Assembly: GCF_007752535.1 (NCBI RefSeq)
Contig: NZ_CP036426.1
Location: 2,666,001 to 2,730,000, forward strand
DNA: 64,000 nt
DNA from: Tautonia plasticadhaerens
GTDB taxonomy: Bacteria > Planctomycetota > Planctomycetia > Isosphaerales > Isosphaeraceae
Direction of reading: 5' to 3'
Positions within the stretch are counted from its first letter, which is position 1; every line of letters begins with the position of its first letter. The notes under the pieces are model-generated. The model searched no databases and was not told the DNA's origin. It saw nothing but the letters and a program-made list of their open reading frames with translations. Of this stretch, positions 37,082 to 43,566 are shown in pieces. The translations under genes and the position numbers were made by a program.

Positions 37082-37181
37082 GCCTAACAATAAAGCTCAG
37101 CGGACCGGCCCGCCGAGAATGTGCTCCGCATCGGAGTCAGCGCGGGCGGCGGGCCGGGTCCGTTGCAGCGCGAGGTTAGGC
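37082..37181 (-). repeat. attC-10 recombination site
   Basis: The 100-bp site is bounded by GCCTAAC (37082) and GTTAGGC (37175), with arms CAGCGGACC and GGTCCGTTGCAG. It is the attC of cassette 10 and the last intact site of the array. One arm base differs from the others (GTTGCAG instead of GCTGCAG). Confidence 0.9.
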
Positions 37182-37184
37182 CGG

Positions 37185-37370
37185 CTAGGACCGGCTCCGC
37201 TTGCCCGCAAGCGAACGCATGAGTCCGACCGCGAGCCCGCCAACCATCATCGTGCCGCCGGCCAGGAACGCCAGGGGGACGGCCCCCTTGGCGCGGGCGA
37301 ACTCGCCATACGCCAGGACCGCGGCCGCGAAGACGAGGCCCAAGAGTGCGACGGTGAATGGTCGGGACAT
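37185..37370 (-). CDS. Cassette 10: two-span small membrane protein
   Basis: This encodes 61 residues starting at ATG 37370, with GGGAG about 12 nt upstream in the cassette leader. Two hydrophobic helices (about 4-20 and 31-50) are separated by a short basic loop (GEFARAKGA), with a basic tail (AGKRSRS). No known family. TAG 37185 lies 3 bp before attC-10. Its role cannot be told. Confidence 0.65.
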   Translation of the reverse strand: MSRPFTVALLGLVFAAAVLAYGEFARAKGAVPLAFLAGGTMMVGGLAVGLMRSLAGKRSRS

Positions 37371-37392
37371 CCGATCGTATAGCTCCCGAGCC

Positions 37393-37492
37393 GCCTAACG
37401 TCGAAGCTCAGCGGACCCGGCCGCCGAGGGATAGCTAGGACTGTCCACAAGACGCCGCGGCGGCCGGGGTCCGCTGCAGCGCGAGGTTAGGC
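37393..37492 (-). repeat. attC-9 recombination site
   Basis: Bounded by GCCTAAC 37393 and GTTAGGC 37486. Its arms differ from the main type (CGGACCCGGCCGCCG against CGGCGGCCGGGGTCC), but the differences compensate, so the stem and the extra unpaired base are kept. Confidence 0.9.
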
Positions 37493-37924
37493 GGCGGGAT
37501 CAGTCGGCCTTCGCGTGCTGCTCAAGCGGAACAGCGCGGAAATGCCGGCGGCGGCCCCGAGCGCCGTCGCGATGAGCAGCGTCGCGATCAGCACGCGGTC
37601 GATGCGATTCGCAGCCGAATGGTAGACGTTCGATCGGGCCGCATATCGAAGCTCGACCGCCTTGAGTCGCTCGACCTCGGCCCCCTGCGGCCCGAAGTCG
37701 AGCGGCGAGCTGGGCGGCGGCCACACCCCATTCGCCCGCGTGACATAATCGGACGCCCGGAACCGGAGCCGATCGCTGTGCGCCGCGAAGGCCAGCCACA
37801 TGCCCACGAGGGCCACCGCGACCATGAGGCGGCGGACGGTGAAGCGGGGTCGCGGCGGCCCTAGAGGTCGGCCTTCGAACCGGATCACCAGCGCTGCCGG
37901 GATGAACGGGATCGGAATCCGCAT
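37487..37924 (-). CDS. Cassette 9: planctomycete-type membrane protein
   Basis: This encodes 145 residues. AAGGAG lies 8 nt before ATG 37924. The segment RFTVRRLMVAVALVGMWLAFA (about 27-47) matches an N-terminal membrane motif frequent in planctomycete proteins. A second span lies near 110-130. The stop TAA (37489-37487) is inside the attC-9 core. The planctomycete motif suggests the cassette was built from the same phylum's gene pool. Function unknown. Confidence 0.75.
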   Translation of the reverse strand: MRIPIPFIPAALVIRFEGRPLGPPRPRFTVRRLMVAVALVGMWLAFAAHSDRLRFRASDYVTRANGVWPPPSSPLDFGPQGAEVERLKAVELRYAARSNVYHSAANRIDRVLIATLLIATALGAAAGISALFRLSSTRRPTDPAA

Positions 37925-37950
37925 CTACCCGCTCCTTGAGCGGAATTGCC

Positions 37951-38050
37951 GCCTAACTCCAAAGCTCAGCGGACCACCCCGCCCGAGCGACCTTCGATTG
38001 TACCAGCGAGCGCCGCGGCGGCGTGGGTCCGCTGTAGCGCGAGGTTAGGC
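37951..38050 (-). repeat. attC-8 recombination site
   Basis: Bounded by GCCTAAC 37951 and GTTAGGC 38044. It has the most divergent arms (GGACCACCCCGCC against GGCGGCGTGGGTCC), yet it still pairs with one extrahelical base at the same place. Confidence 0.9.
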
Positions 38051-38347
38051 GTCGGCCGCCGACACACGCTCGCGTATCTTGGACACAAGGCTACGGATGT
38101 ACGGTTCGGCCTCCTCGTCGGGTTCGTCGCCGTAGTGGCGCCAACGCTGGAACTCGAAGAACAGGCAAGTCCGCAGGTCGATCAGCGTGGCGTCTCGCTC
38201 TTGGTTGGCCACCTCGGCGCACTTCTCGAAGGAACCCCAATGCTGGTACCCATTGAAGGTGAGGGCGAGCCGCCAGATGTCGTCCCAAGATGCGTCCGGC
38301 GGCGGAAGGTCTTCAGCGCGGAGGTCGGAATCTTCGCCATCCGCCAC
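38045..38347 (-). CDS. Cassette 8: small soluble protein of unknown function
   Basis: This encodes 100 residues from GTG 38347, with GGGAG about 9 nt upstream. It is acidic and soluble. LRTCLFFEFQRWRHYGDEPDEE and YIRSLVSKIRERV form a helical core that recalls other small integron cassette proteins. The stop TAA (38045) lies in attC-8. Unknown function, no signal peptide. Confidence 0.75.
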   Translation of the reverse strand: MADGEDSDLRAEDLPPPDASWDDIWRLALTFNGYQHWGSFEKCAEVANQERDATLIDLRTCLFFEFQRWRHYGDEPDEEAEPYIRSLVSKIRERVSAADA

Positions 38348-38365
38348 GTCACCGACTCCCGAGAC

Positions 38366-38465
38366 GCCTAACGAAAAAGCTCAGCGGACCGGCCCGCCGA
38401 GAGAAGCCATTGCATGACCAATTAGCGCCGCGGCGGGCCGGGTCCGCTGCAGCGCGAGGTTAGGC
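38366..38465 (-). repeat. attC-7 recombination site
   Basis: Bounded by GCCTAAC 38366 and GTTAGGC 38459. It has the common arm type (CAGCGGACCGGCCCGCCG). It is the attC of the longest cassette. Confidence 0.92.
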
Positions 38466-38603
38466 GGCGAGGTTGCCCCGCTTGCGCAGTTCACCTCCAG
38501 AATTAGGAATGTCCCCTTTCCAGTCCTCAAGCGGGATCCGGGATGAGGCGCACTACCGGGAGGCGGCAAACATGCCCAGGTTGCTCGACCAGTCGCGCGA
38601 GGC

Positions 38604-38695
38604 GGCGGGGCGGCCGGGGTCGTCCGCGACCCCGGTCCGACCGGAGCGGCCGGGTCAATCGGGCTGGGGTCGCGGACGACCCCGGCTACCCCGCC
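38604..38695. repeat. Inverted repeat IR-A in cassette 7
   Basis: Two 30-bp arms (38604-38633 and 38666-38695) match at 28 of 30 positions around a 32-bp spacer. Each arm itself contains GGGGTCGTCCGCGACCCC-like partial palindromes. It may be a small mobile hairpin unit or a termination structure. Confidence 0.75.
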
Positions 38696-38707
38696 GGTGA
38701 ACCATCG

Positions 38708-38797
38708 GCGGGCGGGTGGCATGCTCTCGCGCAGCGTGAGCATGCAGGGGCAGCCGAAGACATGCTCACGCTGCGCGAGAGCATGCCACCCGCCCGC
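38708..38797. repeat. Perfect 37-bp inverted repeat IR-B in cassette 7
   Basis: Arms 38708-38744 and 38761-38797 are perfect complements over 37 bp, with a 16-nt loop. The right arm ends 9 bp before the stop of the cassette 7 gene, so it would form a very strong hairpin at the 3' end of that transcript. Confidence 0.85.
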
Positions 38798-38805
38798 ACC
38801 CTACC

Positions 38806-39468
38806 CTACTTCGGCGAGACCGTGATGTGGTAGGTGGTGTGGTAGTCGCCGAGTGGACCCTGCACGTCGATCACCAGCGTGTGCTCGCCGACGGGCAGTG
38901 GGTGGAACACCGCGCCGGTCCCGAAGACGAACGTGGCCGCGATGGCGTTCAGTCCGGGACCGCGAGGCTGTGGCTCCGCGTAGAAGATCGGCCCATCGAG
39001 CACGACGGTGCCAAAACTGTACGGCTCGTAATCGCTGGCGAAGCCCTGGAACAACACCTGGCCATCGAGCCGGGCATCGATGAAGGTGGCCTCATACAGG
39101 AACGAGTAATCGGCGTCGGGATCGTCCTGGGTGCCGTCGTCGTAGAGCTCTCCGTAGATGGGCAACACGGGGTGCGCGATCGCCGTCCCGGGCTTGACCC
39201 GGATGTCGAACTCGTCTCCCGCGAAATTGAATGGCATGAACCGGACCTTCTGGACCGTCCCGGGAAGATCCTGACCGCCCAGACTAGTAGCGATCTCCCA
39301 TTCGAGGGCCAGGACGTTCCACTCCGTAAACGACTTGCCGCGGAAATTCGCGTTCGGCGGCAGTAGCGGCGATTGGCCGCCCTGCCCAAACGAGAGCGTG
39401 GGGGCCATCGCGACGGCCACGAACCCCAAGAGCATGACGACTGCGGACTGCTTCGAGAGGCGACTCAT
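38806..39468 (-). CDS. Cassette 7: secreted protein of unknown function
   Basis: This encodes 220 residues. GAGGAAG lies 6 nt before ATG 39468. A signal peptide (MSRLSKQSAVVMLLGFVAVA...LSFGQ) leads a beta-rich mature domain with DDPDADYSFLYEATFIDARLDGQ and FHPLPVGEHTLVIDVQGPLG. This looks like an immunoglobulin- or cupredoxin-like extracellular fold. A 259-bp leader separates its start from attC-6, long for a cassette. Family not recognised. Confidence 0.75.
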   Translation of the reverse strand: MSRLSKQSAVVMLLGFVAVAMAPTLSFGQGGQSPLLPPNANFRGKSFTEWNVLALEWEIATSLGGQDLPGTVQKVRFMPFNFAGDEFDIRVKPGTAIAHPVLPIYGELYDDGTQDDPDADYSFLYEATFIDARLDGQVLFQGFASDYEPYSFGTVVLDGPIFYAEPQPRGPGLNAIAATFVFGTGAVFHPLPVGEHTLVIDVQGPLGDYHTTYHITVSPK

Positions 39469-39727
39469 CGGATGCTTCCTCGGGCCACAGAGCCCGTTCA
39501 AAGGGAAAGGCACCGCTTCGAACACCACTCGTCTCGACGCTGAGGCGAGGGCGGTAGCTGCCCGCGCAATTCCGAACATCGGCGACCGCACCTTATCATC
39601 GAGCAGCGTTGCTGCAAGCGGAATCAAGCAATGTCTCGGAAAAGCAACCCTCGATGCTGCCTGTCGCTCGGCACACGCAGACAAACCCACGTCCGAGGAA
39701 CCCCTGCGAGCAAGGGCTTCGGCCGCC

Positions 39728-39827
39728 GCCTAACGCCAAAGCTCAGCGGACCGGACCGCCGAGAGTGACCTCGATGTTACCAGGAAGCGCCGCGGCGGGC
39801 CGGGTCCGCTGCAGCGCGAGGTTAGGC
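39728..39827 (-). repeat. attC-6 recombination site
   Basis: Bounded by GCCTAAC 39728 and GTTAGGC 39821. It has the common arm type, with GGACC extended by GGACCGCC instead of GGCCCGCC in the left arm. Confidence 0.92.
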
Positions 39828-39847
39828 GACCTGAAGGCTCCACCCGC

Positions 39848-40033
39848 CTATACTTCGGCGTCGCTTCGCGACTTCTGCTCGCGTTCCCAGTACCAAACCA
39901 CGACGTGACTATTGGAGTGAGATATCGATATGAGTTGTTCCGGAGCGAGTTGCTCCGTGAAGTTCGTTGCCGCGTCGAAGTTGGGTTCGTCATCCCATTC
40001 GATGCGGAATGCCTTACATGCGACCTTCATCAT
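39848..40033 (-). CDS. Cassette 6: small acidic protein
   Basis: This encodes 61 residues. AAGGAGG just upstream favours the double ATG at 40033/40030, the second having the better spacing. MMKVACKAFRIEWDDEPNFDAATNF and HSNSHVVVWYWEREQ suggest a beta-alpha-beta small domain. No signal peptide. Similar short proteins occur as integron cassettes, with no known job. Confidence 0.75.
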   Translation of the reverse strand: MMKVACKAFRIEWDDEPNFDAATNFTEQLAPEQLISISHSNSHVVVWYWEREQKSRSDAEV

Positions 40034-40083
40034 CGCCCTCCTTCCGGTCACTCCACAGGTGCGGGAGACGCGACACCTCCGCC

Positions 40084-40185
40084 GCCTAACGACCAAGCTC
40101 AGCGGACCCGGCCGCTGAGTGTGAGCTTCGATGTTACCAGAAGCCGTCCACAGCGGCCGGGGTCCGCTGCAGCGCGAGGTTAGGC
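40084..40185 (-). repeat. attC-5 recombination site
   Basis: Bounded by GCCTAAC 40084 and GTTAGGC 40179, length 102 bp. It shares the alternative arm type with attC-9 (GGACCCGGCCGC with GCGGCCGGGGTCC). Confidence 0.92.
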
Positions 40186-40440
40186 GGAGTCGGCCGCCAT
40201 CCGCATGGCGCTGAACGCCAGGTACTCCGCCGAGAACTTTGGGCCATCGGCCTCCGAGCCGGCGAGCCAATCATCCAGGTCGTCGTCGTTCGCCTGGACG
40301 GCTGCCTTGAGCCGGGCAATCTCATGGGGCGACGCCGAGGAGACGAGCCGCTCGCGTTGGACATCATCGGTGACGCCGAAGCGCTCGGCAAGCGGGATCA
40401 GGTGCCGGAGGCTCGGAGGGACATTCGCGGAGCGAAGCAC
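40180..40440 (-). CDS. Cassette 5: small helical protein of unknown function
   Basis: This encodes 86 residues from GTG 40440. It is predicted all-helical and acidic: LIPLAERFGVTDDVQRERLV, then HEIARLKAAVQANDDDLDDWLAGSEADG and AEYLAFSAMRMAAD. The stop TAA is within attC-5. No clear ribosome site beyond the GGGGG of the cassette leader. Unknown role. Confidence 0.7.
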   Translation of the reverse strand: MLRSANVPPSLRHLIPLAERFGVTDDVQRERLVSSASPHEIARLKAAVQANDDDLDDWLAGSEADGPKFSAEYLAFSAMRMAADSA

Positions 40441-40458
40441 CGGCGTTGCACCCCCGCC

Positions 40459-40558
40459 GCCTAACGACCAAGCTCAGCGGACCGGCCCGCCGAGCGGAAC
40501 CGTTGACTGACCACCGAGCGCCGCCGCGGGCCGGGTCCGCTGCAGCGCGAGGTTAGGC
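40459..40558 (-). repeat. attC-4 recombination site
   Basis: Bounded by GCCTAAC 40459 and GTTAGGC 40552, common arm type. It follows cassette 4's gene by only 2 bp. Confidence 0.92.
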
Positions 40559-40560
40559 GA

Positions 40561-40839
40561 TCAACCCGGCGCATGCTCGTTGCTCACGACCTCTTGTGCT
40601 TTCTGGAGATCGACCTTCCTACGACCGGTCTCACCGCGGAGGATGATCTCCCCTTGCTCCCTCCGCCGCTCAAGCTCGCGAACGCGCTCTTCGAGGCGAC
40701 GGTTCTCCCGCTGAAGCGCCCGGACCTGCGAGCCCAATGCGGCCCCGCGCCGCTCCAGTCGCTGGCTCTGGAAGACGATCGCCAACCCCAGGGCCAAGAC
40801 GAGCACCAAGAGCATCAGCGTTCCGAGGCGATAACGCAT
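40561..40839 (-). CDS. Cassette 4: single-span membrane protein with coiled coil
   Basis: This encodes 92 residues from ATG 40839, with GGCGGGGGCG as the upstream ribosome-binding region. MRYRLGTLMLLVLVLALGLAIVF is a planctomycete-style N-terminal anchor. Residues 30-65 (LERRGAALGSQVRALQRENRRLEERVRELERR) form a heptad coiled coil. It is likely a small bitopic protein. No known family. The cassette leader carries an 87-bp insertion (see 40857). Confidence 0.75.
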   Translation of the reverse strand: MRYRLGTLMLLVLVLALGLAIVFQSQRLERRGAALGSQVRALQRENRRLEERVRELERRREQGEIILRGETGRRKVDLQKAQEVVSNEHAPG

Positions 40840-40856
40840 CTTCGCCCCCGCCGCCT

Positions 40857-40945
40857 GCTCTGTAAATGGGCCTCGAAGGCCGGTCCGTCCCCAGCCAGAT
40901 TGCCCATTTTCATGATCTCAGGGTGCCGCTTGCGGCATGACGACT
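40857..40945. repeat. Insertion in the cassette 3/4 junction
   Basis: Where other junctions read GCCGCCTAAC, this one reads GCCGCCT, then 87 bp, then CTAAC, so CT may be a duplicated target. The insert has a short inverted repeat (AATGGGC/GCCCATT) and leaves the attC core as GACTAAC, off the RYYYAAC consensus. No transposase is present. Confidence 0.6.
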
Positions 40946-41041
40946 AACGACCAAGCTCAGCGGACCGGCCCGCCGAGACAGAGCTTGATGTTACCACGAA
41001 GCGACGCGGCGGGCCGGGTCCGCTGCAGCGCGAGGTTAGGC
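40942..41041 (-). repeat. attC-3 recombination site (altered core)
   Basis: The right core GTTAGGC (41035) is normal, but the left core reads GACTAAC because of the insertion at 40857-40945. The arms are of the common type. It is probably poorer as a recombination site. Confidence 0.85.
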
Positions 41042-41070
41042 GGTCCCGGCGAGCCTCGACCGGCAGAGGC

Positions 41071-41307
41071 TCAAGGCATCTCCGAGTCGGGGGCATCGGA
41101 CGCGGCACGCCGATCGCGGTGCGGGGGGCCGCCGCCGCGTGGGACCGGCGAGCCGGCCGCATCGCCATCTTCCGGGCCTGGCCCTTCGTCGATCATCCGC
41201 ACGATCAGGGCGTTCAGCGACACCCGCTCGCGACGGGCACGCTCGGCGAGCCGATCGTGTAGCGCGGCCGGCATCCGAAGCATGAAGTGAGCGACCGTCT
41301 CCCGCAT
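41071..41307 (-). CDS. Cassette 3: ribbon-helix-helix DNA-binding protein
   Basis: This encodes 78 residues. GGAGG lies about 9 nt before ATG 41307. Residues 8-42 (FMLRMPAALHDRLAERARRERVSLNALIVRMI) fit the Arc/HicB ribbon-helix-helix fold: a strand with MLRMP, helix A, and helix B starting at the SLN turn. The remaining 35 residues are Gly/Pro-rich and probably disordered. It could regulate cassette or host genes or act as an antitoxin, but no toxin gene is in this cassette. Confidence 0.8.
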   Translation of the reverse strand: MRETVAHFMLRMPAALHDRLAERARRERVSLNALIVRMIDEGPGPEDGDAAGSPVPRGGGPPHRDRRAASDAPDSEMP

Positions 41308-41331
41308 CGGACACGCCCTCCGCCCCCCGCC

Positions 41332-41431
41332 GCCTAACGCCAAAGCTCAGCGGGCCGGCCCGCCGAGGGTTTGCTACGACTGACTAGCGAGCGCCGCGGC
41401 GGGCCGGGTCCGCTGCAGCGCGAGGTTAGGC
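41332..41431 (-). repeat. attC-2 recombination site
   Basis: Bounded by GCCTAAC 41332 and GTTAGGC 41425. The left arm has GGGCC in place of GGACC, a single-base change giving a G-U-type pair in the folded strand. Confidence 0.92.
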
Positions 41432-41890
41432 TCAGCCGCCGACAAGCTCTGCGCGAAAGACCGTGACCCTCGTCAGATCGCCGTCTCGGACCCGATGGAT
41501 GACGAGAGTCGTCAATGCGGACGTCGACTTGTGGGTAAATGCGACCTCTTCGACCCCGTCCATCGCTGCCGATGTGGACTTGACGATCGAGAATGACTCG
41601 CCGCTCTCGACCGAGCCGGAAAGCACACCGATCGCGCCGTCCGGGTCGGCCATGTTCCCCGGGTCGACCCCCAGCTTCTTGGCGTAATGCTTCAGGACGG
41701 TATGTACATCATCGGGTGTCTTGAACATCGTGTTGTAAAACGAAGGCTTCCCGGCGGAGAGAACGTCTGTCGCCTCGGGATAGACCCACGCGGCAGCGAC
41801 CTCGTCGATGTCCGGGCCATCGACGGCCAGCGTAGGCGTCGTTGGAAGGAGCAGGAGGAGGCCCGTGGCCGCCGAGACCAGGTGACGCAT
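41432..41890 (-). CDS. Cassette 2: secreted protein of unknown function
   Basis: This encodes 152 residues. AAGGAG lies 7-8 nt before ATG 41890. The signal peptide (MRHLVSAATGLLLLLPTTPTLA) leads a mature domain: EATDVLSAGKPSFYNTMFKTPDDVHTVLKHYAKKLGVD, then SGESFSIVKSTS and TLVIHRVRDGDLTRVTVFRAEL. The latter reads as a helix then a beta sheet. TGA 41432 directly follows attC-2. Unknown family. Confidence 0.75.
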   Translation of the reverse strand: MRHLVSAATGLLLLLPTTPTLAVDGPDIDEVAAAWVYPEATDVLSAGKPSFYNTMFKTPDDVHTVLKHYAKKLGVDPGNMADPDGAIGVLSGSVESGESFSIVKSTSAAMDGVEEVAFTHKSTSALTTLVIHRVRDGDLTRVTVFRAELVGG

Positions 41891-41907
41891 CGGTGATCTC
41901 CTTGTGA

Positions 41908-42007
41908 GCCTAACGACCAAGCTCAGCGGACCGGCCCGCCGAGACTGGGCAATGCATGTGAATGAGCGCCGGTGGCGGGCCGGGTCCGCTGCAGCGCGAG
42001 GTTAGGC
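41908..42007 (-). repeat. attC-1 recombination site
   Basis: Bounded by GCCTAAC 41908 and GTTAGGC 42001. The loop-side sequence GGTGGCGGGCC departs slightly from the common GCGGCGGGCC. It ends the cassette nearest attI. Confidence 0.92.
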
Positions 42008-42391
42008 GGTCGGCGCGAACACCAGCGGCCGCAATTGCTCGATCTTCGGGAGCGACCACGCAGTATCTTGGCCGTCGACCGACCACACCTCCAGACCAGC
42101 AAGCAGGCCGCCACGCGCGAAAACGAACACCCCGAACAACGGCCCTCCTGCCGCCTGCCACTGGTAGTCGGCCAAGACCTGCATCCCGGCACCGACCGGG
42201 GGAAGCTCCTGGCCGATGGAGAAGTCGACGCTGGGGCACCCGCACGGGCACCTGGACACCACTCTCGCCTCGGCGAGTTGCGGGAGGAATCCGGCGGCGT
42301 CCGGGTTGCCGTGCTCCAGCAGCCAGCGGACAAGGACCTGCTCTTGCGCGGTCAGTGGGCGGTCTTCCGAGATTGGCGGTGCTGCAGTCAT
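42002..42391 (-). CDS. Cassette 1: small protein with CPCGCP motif
   Basis: This encodes 129 residues. GGAGGTCGT directly before ATG 42391 is a near-perfect ribosome site. LVRWLLEHGNPDAAGFLPQLAEARVVSRCPCGCPSVDF contains a CPCGCP cluster that could bind zinc. VLADYQWQAAGGPLFGVFVFARGGLLAGLEVWSVDG is beta-rich. The TAA stop is in attC-1. It is the newest cassette in integron logic and the one best placed for expression. Family widespread but uncharacterised. Confidence 0.8.
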   Translation of the reverse strand: MTAAPPISEDRPLTAQEQVLVRWLLEHGNPDAAGFLPQLAEARVVSRCPCGCPSVDFSIGQELPPVGAGMQVLADYQWQAAGGPLFGVFVFARGGLLAGLEVWSVDGQDTAWSLPKIEQLRPLVFAPTA

Positions 42392-42403
42392 ACGACCTCC
42401 GCC

Positions 42404-42480
42404 GCCTAACCTTGTTTCGGCGCACGATTCGTCGCATTTGCGACAAACCGACGTCCGAAAATTCGTGGTGTAACACGCCT
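42404..42480 (-). other. attI-like primary recombination site
   Basis: The boundary of cassette 1 reads, on the minus strand, GCGCCGAAACAAGGTTAGGC, closely like the end of attI1 (CCCTAAAACAAAGTTAGGC). It lies directly between cassette 1 and intI. A GTCGCA/TGCGAC inverted repeat at 42431-42444 may mark integrase binding. The exact outer limit is not determined. Confidence 0.75.
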
Positions 42481-42539: not shown

Positions 42540-42603
42540 AGGGAATTGCCCGGGGTTCGACGTGCGAACGCGCACGAAGGGCACGAGCGAAAGGCGCACC
42601 CCG

Positions 42604-43566
42604 ATGGCGAAGCTGCTCGATCAGGTCCGGGAGGCGATCCGGGTCCGTCATCTCAGCATCCGGACCGAGGAGGCATACGTCGGCTGGATCACGCAGTTCA
42701 TCCGCTTCCACGGCACCCGGCACCCGATCGAGCTGGGGGAGGCGGAGGTCAACGCCTTCCTCACCTCCCTGGCCGTCGAGCGGAGGGTGGCGGCGTCGAC
42801 CCAGAACCAGGCGATGGCGGCCCTGCTGTTCTTGTACAAGGAGGTGCTCGGACGGCCCGTCGAGGAGCTGGGCGAGGTCGTCCGCGCCCGGAGGCCCGAT
42901 CGCCTGCCGGTCGTCCTGACCCGGGAGGAGGTCAAGGCCGTCCTCGACCACCTCACCGGCGAGAGATGGCTCATCGCCAGCCTGCTCTACGGCGCCGGGC
43001 TCCGCCTGCTGGAGTGCCTCCGCCTGCGGGTCAAGGACGTCGACTTCGGCCAGGCCCACCTGGTCGTCCGGGACGGCAAGGGGCAGAAGGACCGCGTCAC
43101 CCTGCTGCCGAGGGCGCTGGCCGACCCGCTCCGCAGGCAGATCGAGCACGCCGCCGCCGTCCATGCGAAGGACCTCCGCGAGGGATACGGCCGGGCCTAC
43201 CTGCCCGGCGCCCTGGCGACGAAGTACCCGGACGCCGACCGTCAGCCCGGCTGGCAATACGTCTTCCCGGCCTCGAAGCGGGGCGTCGACCCGCGATCGG
43301 ACGTCGTCCGGCGCCATCACCTGGCCGAGCGGGCCGTCCAGGCCGCCGTCTCGAAGGCGGTCCAGGCCTCGGGGATCGTCAAGCCCGCCTCCTGCCACAC
43401 CTTCCGTCACAGCTTCGCCACCCACCTGCTCGAATCGGGGAGCGACATCCGGACCGTCCAGGAATTGCTCGGCCACAAGGACGTGCGGACCACCATGATC
43501 TATACCCACGTCCTCCGGTCCGGCCCGATGGGCGTCCGCAGCCCGATCGACTTGCTGATCGGCTGA
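42604..43566 (+). CDS. intI: Integron integrase IntI (tyrosine recombinase)
   Basis: This encodes 320 residues. The catalytic set Arg134 (GAGLR), Lys159 (DGKG), His265, Arg268 (HTFRH), His291 (LLGHKD) and Tyr300 (MIYTH) is complete. The Arg/His/Arg/His/Tyr positions equal those of class 1 IntI minus exactly 12. The IntI-specific insertion lies at residues about 203-240 (TKYPDADRQPGWQYVFP...DPRSDVVRRHHL), which separates it from XerC/D. It excises and inserts cassettes at attC/attI. ATG 42604 is chosen, with a weak GAAAGG upstream. It reads divergently from the cassettes. Confidence 0.96.
   Translation: MAKLLDQVREAIRVRHLSIRTEEAYVGWITQFIRFHGTRHPIELGEAEVNAFLTSLAVERRVAASTQNQAMAALLFLYKEVLGRPVEELGEVVRARRPDRLPVVLTREEVKAVLDHLTGERWLIASLLYGAGLRLLECLRLRVKDVDFGQAHLVVRDGKGQKDRVTLLPRALADPLRRQIEHAAAVHAKDLREGYGRAYLPGALATKYPDADRQPGWQYVFPASKRGVDPRSDVVRRHHLAERAVQAAVSKAVQASGIVKPASCHTFRHSFATHLLESGSDIRTVQELLGHKDVRTTMIYTHVLRSGPMGVRSPIDLLIG

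Follow-up and report, generated by a model that had tools for sequence, protein, structure and literature searches.

The extrahelical bases of attC sites steer the integrase to one strand, and both these extra bases and their role in strand choice are well established. The recognition rules that have been put to the test stem, as far as the literature cited here covers them, from Vibrio sites and resistance cassettes. According to the parts of PMC2727003 that treat the extra bases, the first of them sets the strand choice and is almost exclusively a G; its replacement costs at most a factor of two in an integration assay, a change from G to T brings the deletion assay down to about 1.5%, and at a distance of 6 to 8 bases a conserved T follows. 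The corresponding parts of PMC3053210 name T-N6-G as the best excised arrangement and describe the site of the dfrA1 cassette as A-N7-8-C, for which excision by IntI1 was 3% versus 33.5% for the N6 forms, and which IntI2*179E and SonIntIA excise well. For the attC sites of planctomycetes as a group, Ghaly et al. 2021 provided a covariance model (PMC8352920); the word extrahelical has no occurrence in the main text of that paper.

Here we analysed a window of 64,000 nucleotides (the whole stretch G000:C1:2666001-2730000, from a genome of 9.4 Mb), which in all likelihood contains a chromosomal integron whose attC bottom strands fold under selection and whose inner element is a lineage variant. 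The window sites resemble the VCR of V. cholerae, aadA7 and other tested attC sites in their R and L boxes, in an unpaired spacer and in the extra bases that a single arm of the folded bottom strand carries (cited parts of PMC2727003 and PMC3053210), and their outer extra base has the same distance from the end as G16 of the VCR. In contrast to these tested sites, the inner extra base is not a T but a G within a G run, the outer one is C or T where a G is almost always described, and the T at place 23 is paired. The attC site of the dfrA1 cassette shares with the window sites an outer C, an irregular inner base and a spacing that is not fixed by pairing, whereas its inner base is A instead of G and it represents one cassette rather than a whole lineage (PMC3053210, in the part cited). 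The portion of the open-licence literature that was covered holds no description of this inner-bulge form.

The integron and its ten attC sites

The integrase of the window scores 470.5 bits against TIGR02249 (cut-off 265), which identifies it as an integron-type tyrosine recombinase, and the V. cholerae integron integrase 2a3v matches it with an E-value of 2.1e-91. Beside the start of intI (42604), ten imperfect palindromes of 100-102 nt each extend over positions 37082-42007 and represent attC sites (Table 1). Their numbering starts at the integrase, and the three deviant sites attC5 (40084), attC8 (37951) and attC9 (37393) fix the order. The plus strand was taken as the attC bottom strand because the candidate cassette genes run on the minus strand. 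The integrase gene, the putative attI and the ten cassettes would form a functional unit in which the bottom strands, folded into hairpins, are recombined by the integrase.

Inverted core sites of the form RYYYAAC and GTTRRRY fit at both ends in nine of the ten sites, and one end of attC3 reads GACTAAC. The bottom strand folds with an unpaired spacer and carries its extra bases on the R''-L'' arm. Its fold energy is lower than that of the top strand in eight of the ten sites, a comparison that we did not use as evidence, and no family reached its gathering score in an Rfam search. Eight of the ten window sites and 101 of 117 sites of the family have a G as the first base after the AAC; the reason for the conservation of this base is called obscure in the part of PMC2727003 cited here.

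Table 1. Coordinates of integron features, counted from the first base of the window.
Feature	Positions	Strand	Remarks
intI, integron integrase	42604..43566	+	320 aa, open frame; TIGR02249; Phage_integrase and SAM-like domains; 2a3v match
putative attI	42404..42450	-	core GTTAGGC (42404-42410) and adjoining stretch; stretch kept in G002
cassette array	37088..42410	-	ten units, 311-1362 bp core to core; candidate genes on minus strand
attC1	41908..42007	+	bottom strand
attC2	41332..41431	+	T23 partner is G; T23 unpaired probability 0.44; irregular nearer the loop too
attC3	40942..41041	+	one R box mismatch
attC4	40459..40558	+	further irregularities nearer the loop
attC5	40084..40185	+	three doubly changed pairs; run of four G; irregular nearer the loop too
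attC6	39728..39827	+	one mismatch in the stem
attC7	38366..38465	+	top match to the model built from the ten sites
attC8	37951..38050	+	T as outer extra base; two doubly changed pairs and one mismatch; irregular nearer the loop too
attC9	37393..37492	+	two doubly changed pairs; run of four G
attC10	37082..37181	+	end of the array

Extra bases and covariation of the stem

The de novo alignment of the two arms, for which no structure model was used, places one outer and one inner extra base in every site. The outer base, 16 nt from the 3' end of the plus strand, is without a partner in all ten sites; it is a C in nine of them and a T in attC8. The inner element is one surplus base of the 3' arm within the G run at places 24-26 (24-27 in attC5 and attC9), again in all ten sites, and four sites (starting at 41332, 40459, 40084 and 37951) show additional irregularities toward the loop. 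Ensemble folding as DNA assigns the outer base an unpaired probability of 0.99-1.00 throughout and spreads the single bulged base over G24-G26 or G24-G27. The original prediction that two extra bases occupy equivalent positions on one arm, together with its proposal to fold each site as a single strand and to compare the structures, is thus borne out by both approaches in ten of ten sites. The G-to-T mutant of PMC2727003 bears on attC8, as far as that source is cited here, because the outer base of this site is a T.

Since the bulged G is shared over the run, the spacing of the two extra bases (7 to 9, or 10) is not fixed by pairing. The T-N6-G arrangement, an extrahelical T and G six apart, does not occur in the window, where a G is followed at a spacing of 7-9 or 10 by a C or T. 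All ten sites possess a T at the usual inner place (23), but it is paired because the opposite arm carries an A, or a G in the case of attC2. Its unpaired probability is 0.03 in nine sites and reaches 0.44 in attC2 owing to the G partner; forcing T23 out would, according to the folding model, cost 1.4 kcal/mol in these nine sites and nothing in attC2. We propose that the T, extrahelical in ordinary sites, would have been retained here facing an A, with the single surplus base of the arm shifted to the next G run (the shifted form). The outer C or T would serve strand choice like the G of tested sites. The claim that the extra bases are the signature for the choice of the bottom strand agrees with the position of the outer base, which lies where published mutants place the strand-deciding base (cited part of PMC2727003); it needs qualification for the identity of this base, C or T in place of an almost exclusive G, and for the inner element, a G in a run beside a usual T that is paired.

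A covariance model of the ten window sites revealed more arrays of the same genome near 2.05, 3.37 and 6.93 Mb as well as scattered sites, and one integrase among the matches listed for this genome passes the cut-off. The inner extra base of 36 sites of the genome is a G in 33 cases, an A in three and never a T; the register with a paired T and the surplus base at 24 likewise fits best in 33 of the 36. The outer extra base is visible in 29, the local alignment starting beyond it in the other seven.

Within the window, 98.2% of the 280 cells pair, compared with 95.0% in shuffles and 24.6-42.0% after the partner has been slid by 1-3 columns. Seven cells in four pairs are doubly changed versus 1.3 in shuffles, and 0 of 500 shuffles are as high, a control that does not remove the descent shared by the sites of one genome. 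The double changes are found in attC5 (A1 pairs 26-76, 28-74 and 33-69), attC9 (26-76 and 28-74) and attC8 (26-76 and 27-75). The arms of these three sites had been predicted to differ and still to pair, which agrees with the restored pairs and fails at one mismatch in attC8 (28-74). All double changes fall within A1 columns 26-33, nearer to the loop than the inner bulge. As 14 of the 21 stem pairs are invariant in the window, including both neighbours of the outer extra base, the compensatory changes of the window keep the inner bulge only, so that the idea of extra bases maintained through compensation has to be restricted to this bulge. A set of 35 genome sites, matches to the covariance model with E up to 1e-12 whose alignment was fitted to the structure and hence leans toward it, shows 94.7% pairing in 975 cells and 20 doubly changed cells in 10 pairs, versus 2.9 in shuffles and 2-9 in slid registers. 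One of the pairs flanking the outer base contains a single double change in this set and the other is invariant.

The covariation in the window and in the 35 genome sites speaks for selection on the folded form of the attC sites, as had been anticipated. It is very improbable that the pattern reflects common descent of one repeat without selection on the fold. The invariant pairs, and a stem that is mostly identical in all ten sites, would fit such an origin; the pair-restoring double changes far exceed the shuffled and slid controls, and the extra bases hold their places in integrons of many phyla with unlike arms.

Ordinary and shifted forms and the integrase

A comparison with other phyla was based on an integrase scan of public genomes, whose 80 loci are the best 80 of 358 and in which loci without a found site contribute nothing. 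The two nearest integrases among these named genomes, 68 and 69% identical, come from the planctomycetes L137 and L138, in a ranking from which records very near the window were possibly left out; this suggests a planctomycete host for the window. A scan of the 80 loci for attC sites without a model yielded 46 plus-strand sites under strict and 63 under relaxed settings, the latter versus none in loci shuffled by two-base blocks; the loosest setting, which was used for the base counts, gave 75 candidates versus six in shuffled loci. Of the 75, 58 were scored; the other 17 either stayed below a score of 22 or had as many extra bases on one arm as on the other. Upstream of intI, all 48 of the scored sites have the surplus on the 3' arm of the plus strand, and downstream all ten have it on the opposite arm.

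Eleven of the 58 sites depart from the pattern of exactly one outer and one inner extra base, and the remaining 47 from 24 loci represent many phyla. Their inner base is a T in 45 cases and a G in two, namely, in L138 from the family of the window and in a single L154 site (Rehaibacterium terrae). As outer base, G occurs in 31, C in 12 and T in four sites, C thus being commoner in this sample than stated in the part of PMC2727003 cited here, and the spacing amounts to six in 32 of the 47. The prevailing inner T agrees with the published T-N6-G arrangement. The T-N6-C sites of the planctomycetes G035, G039 and L137 and of G007 have the outer C in common with the window but no A opposite the T, so that the T itself is extrahelical. 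G007 and L237 share the 3' arm stem of the window sites; one example is L237:4457-4556, whose 3' stem arm equals that of most window sites and whose 5' arm stem, as far as read, departs from attC7 at a single position, the base opposite the T.

The aligned set comprises the best 150 of 312 model matches. Twenty of them were dropped for overlapping a stronger match on the opposite strand, and the remaining 130 include weak matches with non-aligning arms, e.g. three in L113; a further match list is represented only in part. Scanning the family loci for box patterns yielded no more than 63 sites, a set that was not used. With a threshold of at least eight of nine outer pairs, 96 of 117 family sites were kept. 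The T at place 23 is present in 94 of these 96 sites with a clean outer stem and in 32 of the 33 sites of four further arrays (G040, G041 and G043). It is retained where its partner is not an A in 7/7 cases of the family set and in 8/9 of the four arrays, which is weak evidence because some neighbouring pairs vary as little. The shifted form fits better in 27 of the 33 sites and the ordinary form in four (two ties), and both forms coexist in the arrays of G040, G041 and G043. G007 has a C as the opposite base, as do some sites of G014, G040, G041 and G043, and the T is then the extra base as a rule. A single C/A difference in the opposite arm separates the two forms, even within single arrays of relatives. 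The inner G is missing from this alignment in 4 of 28 sites of G002 (plus two with another inner reading) and in 3 of 5 sites of G003.

Evidence for the ordinary form comes from sites read inside arrays; the count of its motif, 15 places in 45 genomes and equally 15 in the reversed control, was discarded, as it proves nothing. The 5' arm motif of the shifted form has 94 occurrences, spread over 14 of 45 family genomes, and none in the reversed control. Among 392 sampled genomes of the phylum, which include one other family member, it was found in the window genome alone; being a sequence motif, it would miss a like fold with other letters. The shifted form might be a weak site that slows recombination and stabilises the array, an explanation in line with the 3% excision of the irregular dfrA1 site by IntI1 (PMC3053210). 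We consider it quite unlikely, given that 94 places in 14 genomes ask for active spread and that two other integrases coped well with the irregular site in the cited part of that study.

At the contacts to the two extra bases, the window integrase has K144, R156, K207, Y208, W217, P230, H238 and H239, which is the contact set of IntI1 according to the cited part of PMC3053210. The same residues are present in G002 and G020, which host the shifted form, and in L137 with its ordinary site. Judged from these sequences, the site has changed and the integrase is unchanged at its contact residues, which speaks for continued use of the T by the integrase, but the bulged G may take over this role. That the integrase recognises the sliding G as the inner base has only slightly less than an even chance. 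A bulge in about that place would then suffice, and the T would be kept for other reasons, e.g. its pairing with A. The folding favours the G bulge and leaves T23 almost always paired in nine of ten sites, the tested sites vary naturally in spacing from 6 to 8 (cited parts of PMC2727003 and PMC3053210), and IntI2*179E and SonIntIA handled A-N7-8-C well. The persistence of the T opposite C or G, the presence of ordinary T-bulge sites in the same arrays and the conservation of the T-holding residues of the Vibrio complex argue against a sliding G as the recognised base.

More tentatively, and on balance doubtful, the integrase may flip the paired T out of the stem, the sliding G bulge paying for the swap, and the one-base switch in the opposite arm would create gated sites within one array. 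We infer that the integrase of this lineage variant recombines both forms and that strand choice follows the tested integrons. By mixing two forms one base apart, such arrays offer a natural way to distinguish whether an integrase requires a T that is unpaired, a bulge in this place or no more than a weak spot in the stem, and could sharpen the prediction of attC sites in environmental bacteria.

Putative attI, cassettes and a second locus

The stretch adjoining the core of the putative attI is without clear alignment in G020 and L137 in the sequence comparison. It includes a palindrome, TCGCATTTGCGA, at 42432-42443, which differs in one central base in G002 and has lost full palindromy there. 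Another palindrome at 42555-42569 was considered as a LexA site and dropped, as it is not kept in G002.

The TAA inside the attC core GCCTAAC terminates the frames of cassettes 1, 5, 8 and 9 (42002, 40180, 38045 and 37487, respectively). The frame of cassette 3 (41071-41295, minus strand) gives a match to HicB (31.1 bits, cut-off 21) as well as to Arc-like DNA-binding families. Cassette 7 contains two inverted repeats at 38603-38797, one with perfect 37-nt arms, of which an exact 27-base piece has a single occurrence in the whole genome. Elsewhere on the same contig, at G000:C1:5998822-5999199, an attC-like site (E 1.3e-4) lies beside an integrase remnant whose match is confined to the end of the family, possibly a second, decayed integron.
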